Source: Myxococcaceae bacterium
GTDB lineage: Bacteria > Myxococcota > Myxococcia > Myxococcales > Myxococcaceae
DNA: 64,000 bases
NCBI GenBank assembly: GCA_016793095.1
Contig: JAEUJQ010000073.1
Span: 1 to 64,000, forward strand
Direction: 5' to 3'
This document shows positions 3,920-25,723 of the stretch, in pieces. Both the position numbers and the translations under genes were made by a program. The first letter of the stretch is position 1; every line of letters begins with the position of its first letter. The notes under the pieces are model-generated. The model had not been told where the DNA came from, made no database searches, and worked only from the letters and a program-made list of their open reading frames with translations.

Positions 3920-5551
<1,632 letters not shown>

Positions 5552-18234: not shown

Positions 18235-19044
18235 CTACTTCTTGCAGAGCTCGACGGTCTTCTTGTCCCAGTCGAGGAGCCCCGTCATGATCGTGTTCGC
18301 GACGCCGTTGTCCTCGGTGGTGAAGCCCAGCCCGAGCCGCAGGTCGCGCCACATGCCGTAGGCGTGGAAGAGCTCGCCGGGCGTTCGCTCCCAGAAGATC
18401 TCGATCTGGTAGTCCTGCTCGAAGCTCGTCGCCGGGTCGGGGTTCCTGAACATCGCCGGCGCGGGCAGCCAGGTGCGGGCGATGAGCAGCGGGCCGAAGC
18501 TGGTCTTCCCCTCGGGCGGCGTCACCCGGCGCAGGCCGCCCTTCAGGTTCGAGGTGTACGGCGCCGTCACCAGCTTCGCCGTGAGCGTCACGTCCCAGGT
18601 GAGCGTCGGAGTGGTGCGCTTGCTGAAGGCGTCGGCGTCGCTCGTGTACGTGCGCGTGTACGCGTCGTAGGCCTCGGGGTACTGCGCCTTCTGGTCGAGC
18701 GCGGAGACGACGGCCTCGAGCTTGTCGAGCGTGCACGGGAAGACGTTGCTGACGAAGAAGCCGCGCGCCTTCGACGGGTCCACCACGTCTTTCAAGCCGA
18801 CCACCGCGAGCTCGTCGGGCGTCAGCCGGGTGATGAAGCCGCGCCCGGGCTTGTCGGCGGTGAGCGTGTCGGCCTTCCCCGCCGTCTGCAGCTTGAGCGC
18901 GGCCTCGACGACCTCGGCGTCCTTCGCGTCCTTCGACGACGACCAGAACCACCGCAGGTTGCCGTCGAGGTCTTCGGGCGCGGGCGCCGCCTGGGGGCCA
19001 CACGCGGCGAGGAGAGCGAAGAGGACCGGACCGGAGCGGCGCAT
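18235..19044 (-). CDS. Lipoprotein of unknown function
   Basis: A 269-residue protein with a lipoprotein signal (lipobox LAAC). The rest is a soluble mixed alpha/beta sequence without a motif I recognise: N-terminal NLRWFWSSSKDAKDAEVVEA, a central YTRTYTSDADAF part, and a C-terminal TGLLDWDKKTVELCKK. It is probably anchored to the inner leaflet of the outer membrane or to the cytoplasmic membrane. It is convergent with the Omp85-like gene (nine-base gap) and divergent from the cyclophilin gene. Confidence 0.8.
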   Translation of the reverse strand: MRRSGPVLFALLAACGPQAAPAPEDLDGNLRWFWSSSKDAKDAEVVEAALKLQTAGKADTLTADKPGRGFITRLTPDELAVVGLKDVVDPSKARGFFVSNVFPCTLDKLEAVVSALDQKAQYPEAYDAYTRTYTSDADAFSKRTTPTLTWDVTLTAKLVTAPYTSNLKGGLRRVTPPEGKTSFGPLLIARTWLPAPAMFRNPDPATSFEQDYQIEIFWERTPGELFHAYGMWRDLRLGLGFTTEDNGVANTIMTGLLDWDKKTVELCKK

Positions 19045-19684: not shown

Positions 19685-20956
19685 TCAGCGCGCAGTGGCC
19701 GTCAGGGTCGCCGATGAGTAGGCGCTGTAGGCGTGCACCATCACGTACCAGGTGCCGGCGCGTGGCGTGGCGTTCACCGTCTCATTGCTGTCCGAGCGGT
19801 AGGGGCGCGCGTCGTACGCGGTGAGCGTCGGGGGCGTGCCGTAGCGCACGTAGAGGTCGGCGTCGCCGCTCGTGCCGCGCAGCGCGAATGAGAGGCTGGT
19901 CACGCTGGCGCCCACCTCGAACCGGTACACCTTCGTGCTGCTCGACGCGCCCGAGAGTGAGACCGGCGTTCCGTTCGACAGCGGCGTGCCCGTCCCGCCC
20001 GGCGTCCCCGCGTCGGGAGCGCCAGGGCCCGGCGTGGGCGTCGGCGCAGGAACGCCGGCATCGACCCTCACGCCGCCGTCCGTGACCCCCGAGGGCGGCG
20101 TCGTCGGCGCCACGTCGATGGGGCGCGCCTGGCAGAGGCCCGTCGCGTTGCAGAGCGTCGAGCAGCAGTCGGAGTTCCGGGTGCAGCGCTCCTGGGCCTC
20201 CTTGCAGAGCGGGACGCTCGCGGGGCCGCAGCGCAGCGCCCCCTGCGTCTGGTAGCCGGTGAGCTTCCCGACGCCGAGGAGCCGGTTCGCGAGCGAGCGG
20301 GTCCGGCCGAGGAGCAGCGCGCGCTTCTGCGCCTGGTCGGGACGGCCTTCGTACGAGAGGTACTCGCTCATCACGCCGCACGCGTGCTCGACGTCGCTGC
20401 GCTGGAAGGGCGCGAGCTCGGCGAAGGACTGGATGACAGGCTCGGACTGGGCGTTCGGCGTGTAGAAGCCGGTGAGGTAGTACGTGCTGCCCAGCGTCCA
20501 GAAGAGCTCGTAGCTGCCGCGCGGGTTCGAGCGGCGAATCCACTCCGCCAGCGTGATGGGGCCGGTCGGCGCGAGCGCGGGGTCGAGCACGGTGCGGCCG
20601 GTGGAGCCTTCAATCTCCACCATCGGCGCGACGTGCCAGCCCCAGGTCACGCTCGCGGACGGGTACAAGGTGCCCGTGAGGTACTGTGCGCTGGACGGCA
20701 CGCGTCGGGTCGCGAGCTCCATCGACATGTAGAGGGCGCGCGCGTAGCAGCCGTCCTCGGTGAAGGCGTAGGGCAGGTAGGCGCGCGTCGAGTCCACCAA
20801 CTGCGCCGCGAGCTGGGCCTGCTGAGGCGTGACGCGAGCGCTCTGCTCCGAGATGCCGAGGTCGTCGAGCCCGGAGACGTCGTCCGAAATGACCACCGAG
20901 GCGTCGCCGCACGCCGCGAGCACTGCGCTGATGGTGATGATGAAGCGTCGCTGCAT
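19685..20956 (-). CDS. Protein-glutaminase-like lipoprotein with PPC domain
   Basis: A 423-residue exported lipoprotein; ATG follows AGGAGG and the lipobox is LAAC (Cys16). Residues ~45-130 look like a protein-glutaminase fold: nucleophile region DGCYARA (Cys70), WGWH (His108) and VLDPAL (Asp125), in the Cys-His-Asp order of secreted protein glutamine deamidases. A Cys cluster (CTRNSDCCSTLC) and a Pro/Gly/Thr linker lead to a C-terminal pre-peptidase (PPC) domain (GDADLYVRYG...GTWYVMVHAY). Predicted action is side-chain deamidation of glutamine in external or host/prey proteins. The enzyme assignment is by motif only; a papain-like peptidase is the alternative. Confidence 0.72.
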   Translation of the reverse strand: MQRRFIITISAVLAACGDASVVISDDVSGLDDLGISEQSARVTPQQAQLAAQLVDSTRAYLPYAFTEDGCYARALYMSMELATRRVPSSAQYLTGTLYPSASVTWGWHVAPMVEIEGSTGRTVLDPALAPTGPITLAEWIRRSNPRGSYELFWTLGSTYYLTGFYTPNAQSEPVIQSFAELAPFQRSDVEHACGVMSEYLSYEGRPDQAQKRALLLGRTRSLANRLLGVGKLTGYQTQGALRCGPASVPLCKEAQERCTRNSDCCSTLCNATGLCQARPIDVAPTTPPSGVTDGGVRVDAGVPAPTPTPGPGAPDAGTPGGTGTPLSNGTPVSLSGASSSTKVYRFEVGASVTSLSFALRGTSGDADLYVRYGTPPTLTAYDARPYRSDSNETVNATPRAGTWYVMVHAYSAYSSATLTATAR

Positions 20957-21052
20957 GGGCCCCTCCTGGCGCCCCCCTTTTCTGCGCGGCCGGGTTTGTA
21001 CTGGCGAGCGCCCATGTAGGCGCAAGAGGTGAGCGTCACCGTTTCCAGACGG

Positions 21053-21113
21053 TGCGGCGCGCGCGCTCCATCACTGCAAAGCGGTCTGTCATGGGTGGAG
21101 CGCACGCGCCGCA
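21053..21113. repeat. Long inverted repeat (18-bp arms)
   Basis: Arms 21053-21070 and 21096-21113 pair at 17 of 18 positions (arm TGCGGCGCGCGCGCTCCA), around a 25-nt loop. No T-run follows on either strand, so it is not a normal intrinsic terminator. It lies between divergent genes, in front of the direct repeats. It could be a REP-like palindrome, an RNA structure in the leader of the downstream gene, or a miniature mobile-element end. Confidence 0.7.
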
Positions 21114-21152
21114 CTCCGAGGCTTGCGGGAGACCAGCGCCGATGCGATGGCG

Positions 21153-21335
21153 GGTGAGACGAAGCCGGAAGAGTCACCCTCAGGCCGAGGAGCGCAGGCC
21201 GAACGAAGGCGAAGTCGAACTGGGGAAGCGTGAGACGAAGCCGGAAGAGAGGGCGGAGTCGACGAGGCGAGCGTCACCTCGTCACCTTCAGGCCGAGGAG
21301 CGCAGGCCGAACGAAGGCGAAGTCGAACTGGGGAA
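21153..21335. repeat. Direct repeat pair upstream of the metallo-hydrolase gene
   Basis: A 47-bp sequence (CAGGCCGAGGAGCGCAGGCC...) occurs exactly at 21181-21227 and 21289-21335. A 20-bp sequence GTGAGACGAAGCCGGAAGAG occurs exactly at 21153-21172 and 21230-21249. Together they form an imperfect two-copy tandem array that ends just before the ATG of the next gene. The frame stays open through it (giving a repeated RPNEGEVELG), but I take it as untranslated because the folded protein starts later. Confidence 0.85.
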
Positions 21336-21336
21336 C

Positions 21337-22314
21337 ATGAAACGGCTCAGGCGAGGGTTTGGCGGAGTGCTGTCGGCGGTGACCGCGTTCGTCGCGGTGT
21401 TCCTGTTCTGGAGCCGGCACGTACCGTTCACCGTCGCGGAAGCGGACCGCGCCCCACCGGGCCTGCGCGCGCCGACCGACCTCCTGGACGGCGGCGTGAC
21501 GCTGCGCTTCCTCGGCGTGTCCGGCTACGAGGTGAGCGACGGCGTGACGACGGTGCTGCTCGACCCCACACCGACGCGGCCGCCACCGCTCGCGCTGCTC
21601 CTGCCGCTCGACCCCGACGAGGCGCTCGGCGCGAAGGAGTGCCCGAAGGCCGACCTCATCCTCGTCAACCACACGCACTACGACCACGCCCTCGACGTGC
21701 CGGCCATCGCGAAGCGTACGGGCGCGCTGGTGGCGGGCTCCCAGAACACGGTGAACCTCGCCCGCTCCCGTGGCGTGCCCGAGGCGAAGACGCGCGTGGT
21801 GAAGGCCGGTGAGCGCTTCACGGTGGGGACCTTCACCATCGACGTCGGCCGCTCACGCCACACGCGCATCGCCGGCCTGTCGGAGCCGATGAGCGGCCCG
21901 TTGCCCGTGGAGGCGGGCCGGCTGTGGTTCTGGCAGTACACGCTCGACGAGACGCTGTTCTTCAGGCTCGAGGCGAACGGCACCTCCATCTGGTGGCACC
22001 CCACCAGCACCTGGGCCGACGGAGAGCTTCCTCCGACTGCTCCACCCGCCGGTACGCTCATCGTCGGCGTCACCGGGGAGGCGCAGACCGTGGACAAGGC
22101 GCGCGGCCTGCTCAGCGCTACGCGGCCGAAGTTCGTGCTGCCGACGCACTACGACAACTTCTTCCAGCCCTGGGAGAAGGGGCTCGGCCTGATGCCGGGG
22201 CTCGACCTGCCCGCCGCCCGCGCCGCCTTCGCCGCGGTGGACGCTGGGACGACGTGGGTGGTGCTCGACCAGGGAGAGCGCATCGTCCTGCCGCCGGACG
22301 CGCCCCGCGACTGA
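21337..22314 (+). CDS. Membrane-anchored metallo-beta-lactamase-fold hydrolase
   Basis: A 325-residue protein with an N-terminal membrane anchor (~10-30) and a UlaG/NAPE-PLD-like metallo-beta-lactamase domain. The metal site is NHTHYDH (the HxHxDH motif); further ligands are likely in GRSRHTRI and PTHYDNF. It probably hydrolyses a phosphodiester or ester at the periplasmic face. The start was placed at ATG (MKRLRRGFGG) because the anchor begins there; the frame is open for another 95 codons through a repeat region. The metal site is complete, but the substrate cannot be told. Confidence 0.85.
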   Translation: MKRLRRGFGGVLSAVTAFVAVFLFWSRHVPFTVAEADRAPPGLRAPTDLLDGGVTLRFLGVSGYEVSDGVTTVLLDPTPTRPPPLALLLPLDPDEALGAKECPKADLILVNHTHYDHALDVPAIAKRTGALVAGSQNTVNLARSRGVPEAKTRVVKAGERFTVGTFTIDVGRSRHTRIAGLSEPMSGPLPVEAGRLWFWQYTLDETLFFRLEANGTSIWWHPTSTWADGELPPTAPPAGTLIVGVTGEAQTVDKARGLLSATRPKFVLPTHYDNFFQPWEKGLGLMPGLDLPAARAAFAAVDAGTTWVVLDQGERIVLPPDAPRD

Positions 22315-23029: not shown

Positions 23030-25723
23030 TCACGGGCACATGCCGCCGCTGCAGGTGCCGGTCTGGCACCAGTTGCCGGCGCAGCACCGCTGGGCCGGGC
23101 CGCCGCAGGACTGGCACGTGGCTGACGACGACGAGGAAGAAGAGCAGACGTTGGCCTGCCCGCAGTACGTGTTGCGCGTGCAGCAGGCCTGGCCGTTGGC
23201 GCCGCAGGGGCTGCAGGTGCTGCTCTGCTCCGAGGTGTACGGCGCCACGCACGAGCTGAAGCTGCAGCTCTGCTGGCCAGGCCCACCGCACGGCGTCGAG
23301 CTCGAGCCCGAGCACGAGCCTCCGTTGCACCGGCCCGAGAAGATGGAGTCGCACTCGGCGCCCTGGATGACGCAGGTGGCGCCGCGGCCGCAGCAGCCCC
23401 CGCCGAAGCAATAGTTCCCCTGGCAGCACGGCTCGCCCGGCGCGCCGCACGTCTGGCAGGTGGAGCCGTTGCACACGAGCCCCGAGCCGGAGCAGAGGTT
23501 GCCGGCGCAGCACTGCTGGCCCTCGCCGCCGCACGTCCCGCACGAGCCGGGCAGGCCCTGGCACACCTGGCCGTTGGTGGGACACGTCGCCCCGCGCGCG
23601 ACGCACACCTGGCTCGCGCAGCAGCCGCCGTTCGCGCACGTGTTGTTCTGACAGCACGGCTGGCCCGGGCCGCCGCAGGCCGTGAAGGCCCCGCCCACGC
23701 ACACGCTGTTCGGCGCGCTGCCGTTCGCGCCGGGAGGGATGCAGCGGTTCGTCGAAGGGTCGAGGCACGAGCCGCCGGCACAGGGCGTCGCGCCGGGGCA
23801 CGGGGGGGCATAGGCCGAACCGCAGCCCGCACAGGTGTTGTCGGCGATGCACGCGCGGTTGGCGTCGCAGGCCTGGCCCACCGCCACGCAGACGCCGTTG
23901 GGGCCGGCGCAGCCCGAGGTGCACCGCTGGTCCGAGCAGACCGGTTGGCCGGGCGCTCCGCAGGGCGCCGTGCAAGTGCCCGCGTCGCCGCAGGCCACGT
24001 ACGCGCCCGTGCAGCGGTTGAAGGGCGGGCAGCAGCTCTGCCCGGTGTTCCCGCAGGCGCCGCAGCTGCCGCTCATGCACGTGCCGCTGCCGTAGATGGA
24101 GTTGCACGACTGACCGCTCGCCGTGCAGCGGTTGCCGGTGCAGCAGCCGCCGGCCGAGCACTCTCCGCCGGGGCAGCAGGGCTGGTTGGGCCCACCGCAC
24201 GTCTGGCAGAAGCCGTTGCTGCAGATGGTCCCTGCGTCGGCGCTGCTGCTGCACTGGCTCCCCGCGCAGCAGGGCTGGTTGGGTCCTCCGCAGGCGGTGC
24301 ACGTCGAGGTGCTGCTCGAGGTCGTGCAGGCGAACCCCGACTGGCAGGTGTTGCCCTGGCAGCAGCGCTGGCCGCTGCCGCCGCACGTCGCGCAGACCGG
24401 GTTGGTGGTGGCGCCGGTGCAGGCCCCTGCGTCGCAGGCGCCTCCGAGGCAGCAGGGCTCGCCGATGGCGCCGCAGGCCCGGCACATGCCAGCCGAACAC
24501 ACGCCTTCAGCGCAGCGGCTGTTGGCGCAGCACTGCTGGTTCAGCCCGCCGCAGGGCGTGCACTGGTTCGTCCCGGTGCAGGTGCGGCCGACGTCGCAGG
24601 CCGAGCCGCTGGCCCGGCAGACCTTGTTGTTCGGGTCCCGCACGTCGCAGCAGCCGGTGTTGCACTGGTCGTTCGCACAGCAGGGCTGGTTGAGTCCGCC
24701 GCAGCCCGCGCAGGCGCCCGTCGCGAGGCAGAGGTCGCCCCCGAAGCACACCGCGTTGGTCGCGAGGCAGCGGTTGGCGCGGTCGCAGCAGCCGCCGTTG
24801 CACACGCTGCCCGCGCAGCACGGCGTTCCCGGCGTGCCGCAGGCCGTGCAGGTGAGGCCCGAGCAGACCGTCTGCGGCTGGCTGCAGTACTGGTTCTGAC
24901 AGCACTGCTGCCCACCCTGACCGCAAGCGACGCAGGTCGTCGACGAGATGGAGCAGACGGCGCCCGTCGCGGTGCACTGGTTGCCGCAGCACGGCTGGGT
25001 GAGTCCGCCACAGGCGCCGCAGGAGCCGTTCATGCACATCTGGTTGTTCGCGCACATGTTCCCCGCCGCGACGCACACCTGGTTGTAGGCGCAGCCGCCG
25101 TTGTTGCAGACGTTGCCCGGGCACGCCGGCTCGCCGGGGTTGCCGCAGACACGGCAGATGTTGCCCTGGCAGATGGTGTTGGCGCCGCACAGGCTGCCGG
25201 GGCAGCACGCCTGGCCGGGACCGCCGCAGGTCTGGCAGTTGCCGCCCACGCACGCGAGGCCCGCGCCCGAGCAGCGGTTTCCGGGGCAGCACACCGCGCC
25301 CGCCATGAGGCCGCAGTTCGCCGGCACGCACTGGCCCATGCGGCAGTTGTTCCCGGTGCCGCAGGGCGTGTTGTCGGGCACGTTCATCGAGACGCACGCG
25401 GGCTGGCCGAAGGAGTCACAGGTGAGGGCGCCGCTCACGCACGGGCCCATGCCCGCGTCGCAGGGGCCGGTGAAGGAGCAGGCGCCGCCGCCGCCCGTGC
25501 CGCCGCCCGCCGTGGAGCCGCCCGCCGTGGACCCGCCCGCCGCGGAGCCGCCCGCTGCGGAGCCGCCCGCGTCACCGCCTGCGCTCGCACCACCGCCGGT
25601 GCTCGAGGTGCCGCCACCCGTGCCCGAGACGCCGCCACCGCTGCCCGCGTCGGTGTCAGCCGGCGGTTGCGGACAGCCGAGGAGGAACAGACTGCTCAGG
25701 AGCAGCGCGCGTGCCGGAGTCAT
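23030..25723 (-). CDS. Giant Cys-rich repeat lipoprotein
   Basis: An 897-residue exported lipoprotein (lipobox LLGC). Residues ~25-80 are a Gly-Ser-Thr-Ala linker like that of the lipoprotein at the window start. The rest is about 20 tandem repeats of 35-45 residues with the pattern C-x-x-C-G-G-x-x-Q-P-C-C-x-x-x-x-C, then one or two more Cys. Every copy would give several disulfides, so the chain should be a rigid rod. Similar DUF-like cysteine repeats occur in myxobacterial surface lipoproteins; no enzyme motif is present. It may serve adhesion, metal binding or surface shielding. It stands alone, with ~70 bp to the next gene downstream. Confidence 0.85.
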   Translation of the reverse strand: MTPARALLLSSLFLLGCPQPPADTDAGSGGGVSGTGGGTSSTGGGASAGGDAGGSAAGGSAAGGSTAGGSTAGGGTGGGGACSFTGPCDAGMGPCVSGALTCDSFGQPACVSMNVPDNTPCGTGNNCRMGQCVPANCGLMAGAVCCPGNRCSGAGLACVGGNCQTCGGPGQACCPGSLCGANTICQGNICRVCGNPGEPACPGNVCNNGGCAYNQVCVAAGNMCANNQMCMNGSCGACGGLTQPCCGNQCTATGAVCSISSTTCVACGQGGQQCCQNQYCSQPQTVCSGLTCTACGTPGTPCCAGSVCNGGCCDRANRCLATNAVCFGGDLCLATGACAGCGGLNQPCCANDQCNTGCCDVRDPNNKVCRASGSACDVGRTCTGTNQCTPCGGLNQQCCANSRCAEGVCSAGMCRACGAIGEPCCLGGACDAGACTGATTNPVCATCGGSGQRCCQGNTCQSGFACTTSSSTSTCTACGGPNQPCCAGSQCSSSADAGTICSNGFCQTCGGPNQPCCPGGECSAGGCCTGNRCTASGQSCNSIYGSGTCMSGSCGACGNTGQSCCPPFNRCTGAYVACGDAGTCTAPCGAPGQPVCSDQRCTSGCAGPNGVCVAVGQACDANRACIADNTCAGCGSAYAPPCPGATPCAGGSCLDPSTNRCIPPGANGSAPNSVCVGGAFTACGGPGQPCCQNNTCANGGCCASQVCVARGATCPTNGQVCQGLPGSCGTCGGEGQQCCAGNLCSGSGLVCNGSTCQTCGAPGEPCCQGNYCFGGGCCGRGATCVIQGAECDSIFSGRCNGGSCSGSSSTPCGGPGQQSCSFSSCVAPYTSEQSSTCSPCGANGQACCTRNTYCGQANVCSSSSSSSATCQSCGGPAQRCCAGNWCQTGTCSGGMCP

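Follow-up and report, generated by a model that had tools for sequence, protein, structure and literature searches.

The window analysed here, a stretch of 64,000 nucleotides at the start of contig JAEUJQ010000073.1 of a Myxococcaceae bacterium, contains a gene for a 423-residue predicted lipoprotein in which a protein-glutaminase domain is joined to a Cys-rich module, a linker and a PPC domain (19685..20956, minus strand, as for all features of this gene given below). We favour, with rather more confidence than doubt, the reading that the product is a secreted, membrane-tethered protein glutaminase, an enzyme that converts glutamine to glutamate in proteins. The layout was derived from the open reading frame (ORF), Pfam matches and an alignment of orthologues; the gene starts with the ATG at 20956, its stop codon ends at 19685, and its G+C content at third codon positions (GC3) is 0.94. 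Two points are unusual in this putative protein glutaminase, its membrane tether and its missing pro-domain.

A predicted protein-glutaminase domain with a conserved triad

The match to the catalytic family Gln_deamidase_2 (PF18626; residues 57-141, 20534..20788) scored 57.3 bits (E 2.1e-15), the cut-off being 25, and all seven orthologues match this family at E ≤ 0.001; the predicted domain is well beyond chance. A PDB sequence search with the single protein returned the protein-glutaminase entries 2ksv, 2zk9, 3a54, 3a56 and 8z3i at E 8.7e-8 to 1.8e-6. Protein-glutaminase entries were reached at E 1.9e-12 to 5.4e-10 with a profile of the seven orthologues, and a profile of 14 sequences, distant Myxococcota copies among them, brought this to E 2.2e-22 to 6.3e-22. 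The best profile match (E 2.2e-22) is 8z3i, described as a ‘protein glutaminase domain-containing protein’. By ungapped count, Cys70 of the query lies near residue 183 of 8z3i, about 140 residues beyond its place in the mature enzyme of Chryseobacterium proteolyticum, so 8z3i has a long N-terminal part.

The initial annotation of this gene, made from the sequence alone, had held that Cys70, His108 and Asp125 are placed as in protein glutaminases, and the alignment bears this out: the three residues are in register with Cys42, His83 and Asp103 of 2ksv, with identity at 27 of 82 query residues, and a figure legend in PMC3498931 gives the same three positions as the triad of 2zk9. The predicted nucleophile Cys70 (20747..20749, Cys42 of 2ksv and 2zk9), the predicted catalytic His108 (20633..20635, His83) and the predicted catalytic Asp125 (20582..20584, Asp103) are each present in all seven orthologues. 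In a wider alignment with one row per distinct protein, His108 and Asp125 are kept in 14 of 14 proteins and Cys70 in 13 of 14, the exception (L048) being poorly aligned there. Membership of the protein-glutaminase family is therefore well supported by the domain, though not by whole-protein type, and deamidase activity would follow by homology together with the intact triad.

A predicted lipid anchor and the missing pro-domain

That the protein is a lipoprotein, as the initial annotation had also proposed, is upheld by the orthologues. The predicted type II signal peptide (residues 1-15) is followed by the lipid-anchor residue Cys16 (20909..20956 together), and both Cys16 and Gly17 are invariant in all seven proteins. 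The lipobox was assessed with a PROSITE-like lipoprotein pattern written out from general knowledge; in its strict form the pattern fits six of the seven orthologues, L036 with a Cys at −3 being the exception, and when the window protein is shuffled it arises in 350 of 20000 cases. For L037 the start was taken as the GTG at 4998 (codon checked), because the later ATG gives too short a signal. Among 12 inner-membrane lipoproteins of Myxococcus xanthus, eight carry Lys at +2, and in the same species Ala at +7 is required for matrix export of FibA (PMC3222651). Neither residue occurs at its position in any of the seven orthologues, which all have Gly at +2. Under these sorting rules, which are those of M. 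xanthus and may not hold for this genus, the sequence points to the outer membrane and indicates neither leaflet.

Residue 61 of the query aligns with residue 33 of mature 2ksv and with residue 147 of the pro-form 3a54. By ungapped count, residue 1 of mature 2ksv thus falls on query residue 29, and the pro-form has 114 residues before that point. In the window protein, 12 residues lie between Cys16 and residue 29, and the reading frame opens just 38 codons upstream of the ATG (an open frame of 461 residues). Within these limits a comparable N-terminal pro-domain of about 114 residues cannot exist in the predicted product; residues 17-56 (20789..20908), a short acidic N-terminal segment with the first helix, are below that size. 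Inhibition by a different part of the protein is possible. The pro-regions of published protein glutaminases are reported to span 108-118 residues (PMC9396377; PMC6132073).

The closest point of comparison is the protein-glutaminase of C. proteolyticum (EC 3.5.1.44; 2ksv, 2zk9 and 3a54), which is described as a pre-pro-protein with a putative signal of 21 residues, a pro-region of 114 residues and a mature form of 185 residues (PMC6132073). The two proteins share the catalytic domain, the register of the triad and the motifs at all three of its residues. Unlike the Chryseobacterium enzyme, the window protein has a predicted lipid anchor, added Cys-rich and PPC modules, and no pro-domain. The Chryseobacterium pre-pro-enzyme may, however, have a signal similar to that of a lipoprotein, in which case the anchor would be less new.

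Accessory modules and structural models

The core is followed by a conserved region without a Pfam match (residues 151-242, 20231..20506), which is 58-90% identical to the six other orthologues. Next comes the Cys-rich module (residues 243-275, 20132..20230), whose seven cysteines (C243, C251, C258, C264, C265, C269 and C275), including a CC pair, are invariant in all seven proteins. A sub-threshold conotoxin model on this part (E 0.11) is the sole other Pfam family at E ≤ 1, and a scan of the Cys-rich motif as a DNA pattern gave no match within the window. A variable linker separates this module from the PPC domain, which the initial annotation had named correctly: PF04151 matches residues 341-408 (19733..19936) of the 423-residue protein with 63.1 bits (E 4.5e-17), and PPC was scored in six of the seven orthologues. 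In L035 (L035:5844-6335, plus strand) near-identical repeats rich in Gly, Ala and Asp lengthen the linker, and the PPC domain is about 40 residues shorter. No PADLOC family was matched.

Two AlphaFold2 runs were made with seven sequences each, one on the full length and one on residues 36-250. In the model of residues 36-250, the post-core helices at about residues 186-203 and 208-228 reached block mean values of 81-92 on the predicted local distance difference test (pLDDT). A Foldseek search with the full-length model gave 11 matches at 0.001, led by the PPC structure 2luw (E 5.7e-7) and including further PPC, collagen-binding and CBM6 domains; protein-glutaminase was not among the 50 matches listed.

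Conservation and distribution

Orthologues were found in seven of 195 Myxococcota genomes, and five of the seven genomes of the genus have one; the genomes of the genus-mates are metagenome-assembled genomes named Myxococcaceae, Archangiaceae or Myxococcales. The gene is present as a single copy in its own genome, and a scan of genome contigs for relatives gave six loci. The catalytic core is under purifying selection, with non-synonymous divergence (dN) of 0.08-0.22 and synonymous divergence (dS) of 0.36-0.75 against the six other orthologues. L036 and L037 are the two orthologues furthest from the window protein; their respective identities to it are 82% and 75% (core), 62% and 58% (post-core region), 57% and 53% (PPC domain), and 27% and 45% (linker). 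In the four nearer orthologues, conservation of the post-core region is about equal to that of the core or higher.

PF18626 itself occurs at 14 places in 12 of the 195 genomes, and seven of these places encode the lipoprotein type described here. Five of the other seven (L038, L040, L041, L046 and L048) have PF18626 without a second Pfam domain at E 0.01, although L046 reaches a contig end and may be incomplete. L039 (L039:1288-2148, minus strand, genome G188) has the same catalytic family (PF18626, E 9.2e-24); it differs from the window protein in having a PAAR motif domain (E 1.8e-14) as its fusion partner and in not being a lipoprotein. Given the PAAR fusion, L039 is probably a deamidase-domain cargo of type VI secretion. 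The remaining place, L047 (L047:1072-2112, minus strand), lies in the single-contig genome G152 of the same family and encodes a Gln_deamidase_2 protein with a lipoprotein-like start and no PPC domain.

Residues 17-245 had no match in the phage collection. The plasmid collection gave a sole weak match, to an unannotated stretch of a Sinorhizobium plasmid, covering 34% of the query at 34% identity. Three scans of viral contigs for related loci gave no relative, and a pattern scan of the same contigs gave 21 stretches, none convincing (best E 0.005, in a frame of 87 codons). The novelty of the architecture was judged within the Myxococcota genomes and the phage, plasmid and viral collections searched.

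Genomic surroundings

The 3′ end of the gene is faced by a cyclophilin gene (PF00160; 19104-19616, plus strand) at a distance of 68 bases, and a divergent ORF with a metallo-beta-lactamase fold lies upstream (21052-22314, plus strand, coordinates as mechanically listed). A metallo-beta-lactamase-fold gene also adjoins L032, L033 and L034; cyclophilin, lipoprotein-like and Omp85-type genes also lie beside L032 and L034, the latter with two more ORFs of the window. The one match at L036, at 33%, is to an ORF that lies about 9 kb off in the window, and no window neighbour above the limit was found at L035 or L037. Because each locus covers no more than 5 kb on either side, and L035 stops about 0.9 kb past the gene, this absence of shared neighbours is partial. 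When the six named loci were compared all against all, using ORFs of at least 90 codons at a bit score above 100 and leaving out ORFs that touch the central part, the metallo-beta-lactamase-fold ORFs among them, L032 and L034 were the sole two with common neighbours.

Several further elements of this neighbourhood were recorded. A 269-residue lipoprotein-like protein without a Pfam match at E 0.01 (18235-19044, minus strand) is about 83% conserved beside two orthologues, and an 897-residue lipoprotein-like protein, also without a Pfam match at E 0.01 (23030-25723, minus strand), is very Cys-rich with repeated CGGPGQPCC-type units. Between the gene and the metallo-beta-lactamase-fold gene lies a 19-nt inverted repeat (21052-21114, plus strand) that is 95% complementary with 25 nt between its arms. 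Also upstream of the gene, an element at 21150-21340 (plus strand) contains a 55-nt direct repeat whose copies are 98% alike; it belongs to a dispersed repeat family with 46 matches in its own genome including itself, at 70-100% identity and in some cases in tandem.

Discussion

In the reading we favour, the protein would be exported, attached to lipid at Cys16 and placed in the outer membrane. Following the general thioester mechanism of such enzymes, Cys70, activated by His108 and Asp125, would attack the side-chain amide of a protein-bound glutamine with release of ammonia, and water would hydrolyse the thioester to leave glutamate. The PPC domain and the Cys-rich module would keep the substrate or the matrix close to the enzyme. 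Lacking an N-terminal pro-domain, the enzyme would be active once folded, with tethering, rather than a zymogen, limiting self-damage. Its role may then be the general processing of extracytoplasmic protein, such as prey debris or matrix protein, rather than a specific strike on one prey target; deamidated protein would be more soluble and more negatively charged, and hence easier for secreted proteases to attack. The likeliest role, in our view, is that the enzyme, aided by the PPC domain, would deamidate extracytoplasmic protein unspecifically in the vicinity of the cell. PPC domains are typical of secreted hydrolases, and a part for this domain is supported by its presence in L072, a metalloprotease-like protein encoded by the same genome, and in FibA of M. 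xanthus. FibA, an M4 protease with two PPC domains, has the same order of signal, catalytic domain and PPC in an envelope or matrix setting, and its pro-form has been proposed to be lipid-anchored (PMC3236237). It differs in its enzyme class, in its FTP pro-domain (PMC3236237) and in its Ala+7 matrix signal (PMC3222651).

It may not be uncommon for such enzymes to be exported, as suggested by a survey that reports Gln_deamidase_2 genes near type IVB secretion genes (PMC10318531) and by a table of type II-dependent secreted proteins of Legionella, in which a ‘glutaminase domain-containing protein’, possibly of another family, came first among the entries listed (PMC12239567). In the open-licence literature, the titles and abstract starts among the matches listed named no lipoprotein-type or myxobacterial protein glutaminase.

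Several points weigh against a tethered protein glutaminase. The full-length protein-glutaminase equivalog model NF040782 of NCBIfam is not reached (25.1 bits against 250). The initial annotation had suggested comparing a predicted fold with protein-glutaminase; run on the seven-sequence alignments, this comparison rests on models in which the helices are formed and the strands bearing His108 and Asp125 have low pLDDT. In both runs, block mean pLDDT was 53-74 around Cys70 and 27-46 for those strands, and Foldseek with the core model, most of which is at low pLDDT, had 16 matches at E ≤ 10, none of which reached 0.001. No neighbour was found conserved beside every orthologue. A pro-enzyme from Bacteroides is reported to be active as such and 17-fold more active after cleavage (PMC13139226), so a pro-domain dampens activity and does not always block it; its absence here may accordingly mean less. 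Related folds perform transglutaminase or peptidase chemistry (PMC3498931), and for this putative enzyme the activity, the surface exposure, the leaflet and the substrate are proposals.

The initial annotation had suggested that such an enzyme, on the surface of a predatory lineage, could modify prey proteins. A more specific role in predation can be envisaged, in which a zymogen-free protein glutaminase displayed on the outer membrane or on vesicles would deamidate glutamines of the prey envelope on contact while the PPC domain grips prey or matrix. The lineage of the genus-mates is known for predation, and it is from this lineage that a prey-specific role, though possible, takes its case; among the matches listed from the open-licence literature, none described a protein-modifying step of this kind in bacterial predation. 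We regard this version as unlikely. It is also doubtful that the protein is a self-modifying enzyme of the periplasm, held in the inner leaflet of the outer membrane and deamidating one or a few of the cell's own envelope proteins. Outer-membrane lipoproteins face the periplasm by default and the sorting residues give no sign of matrix export, but the patchy presence of the gene, in seven genomes of the phylum sample and five of seven in the genus, argues against a core housekeeping target, and the PPC domain would be more at home on a secreted hydrolase.

The same fold could also serve another chemistry, with an amine taking the Cys70 thioester, as in a transglutaminase that cross-links matrix proteins or the cell's own envelope proteins, or with cleavage of a peptide bond. 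Deamidases, transglutaminases, proteases, NATs and PNGases are among the structural relatives with a Cys-His-Asp/Glu triad (PMC3498931), and a protein that cross-links the matrix might well make use of Cys-rich and PPC modules. Nevertheless, the sole enzyme families at E ≤ 1 are Gln_deamidase_2 and the NCBI protein-glutaminase model, and the PDB sequence matches over the core below E 0.3 are all protein-glutaminases, which makes a change of chemistry improbable. We consider it very unlikely that the protein is a toxin like SitA, passed among kin by outer membrane exchange and toxic through deamidation. SitA toxins are likewise lipoproteins of myxobacterial outer membranes and are exchanged between cells (PMC8546572), the gene belongs to a myxobacterial lineage, and the PAAR fusion in L039 suggests that the domain is used as injected cargo. 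However, SitA proteins are described with an escort domain, a C-terminal toxin domain (nucleases in those described) and an immunity gene (PMC8546572), none of which was seen here. The predicted enzyme is N-terminal and the PPC domain C-terminal, with no variable C-terminal toxin domain, and the core and the region that follows it are the best conserved parts. Among ORFs of at least 80 residues no candidate immunity gene was seen next to the gene, and no gene on the same strand lies directly downstream; the flanks are the facing cyclophilin gene and the divergent metallo-beta-lactamase-fold gene.

In the papers cited here, protein glutaminases are described as being made with a pro-domain. A tethered form without one raises the question of how the cell spares its own envelope from an unspecific protein deamidase, and we suggest that the tethering, or the Cys-rich and PPC modules, may substitute for the zymogen. 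Since protein glutaminase is an enzyme of the food industry, the protein may offer a new starting point for the deamidation of food proteins. For the myxobacteria, it is a hint that they may chemically alter, besides cutting, proteins outside the cytoplasm.
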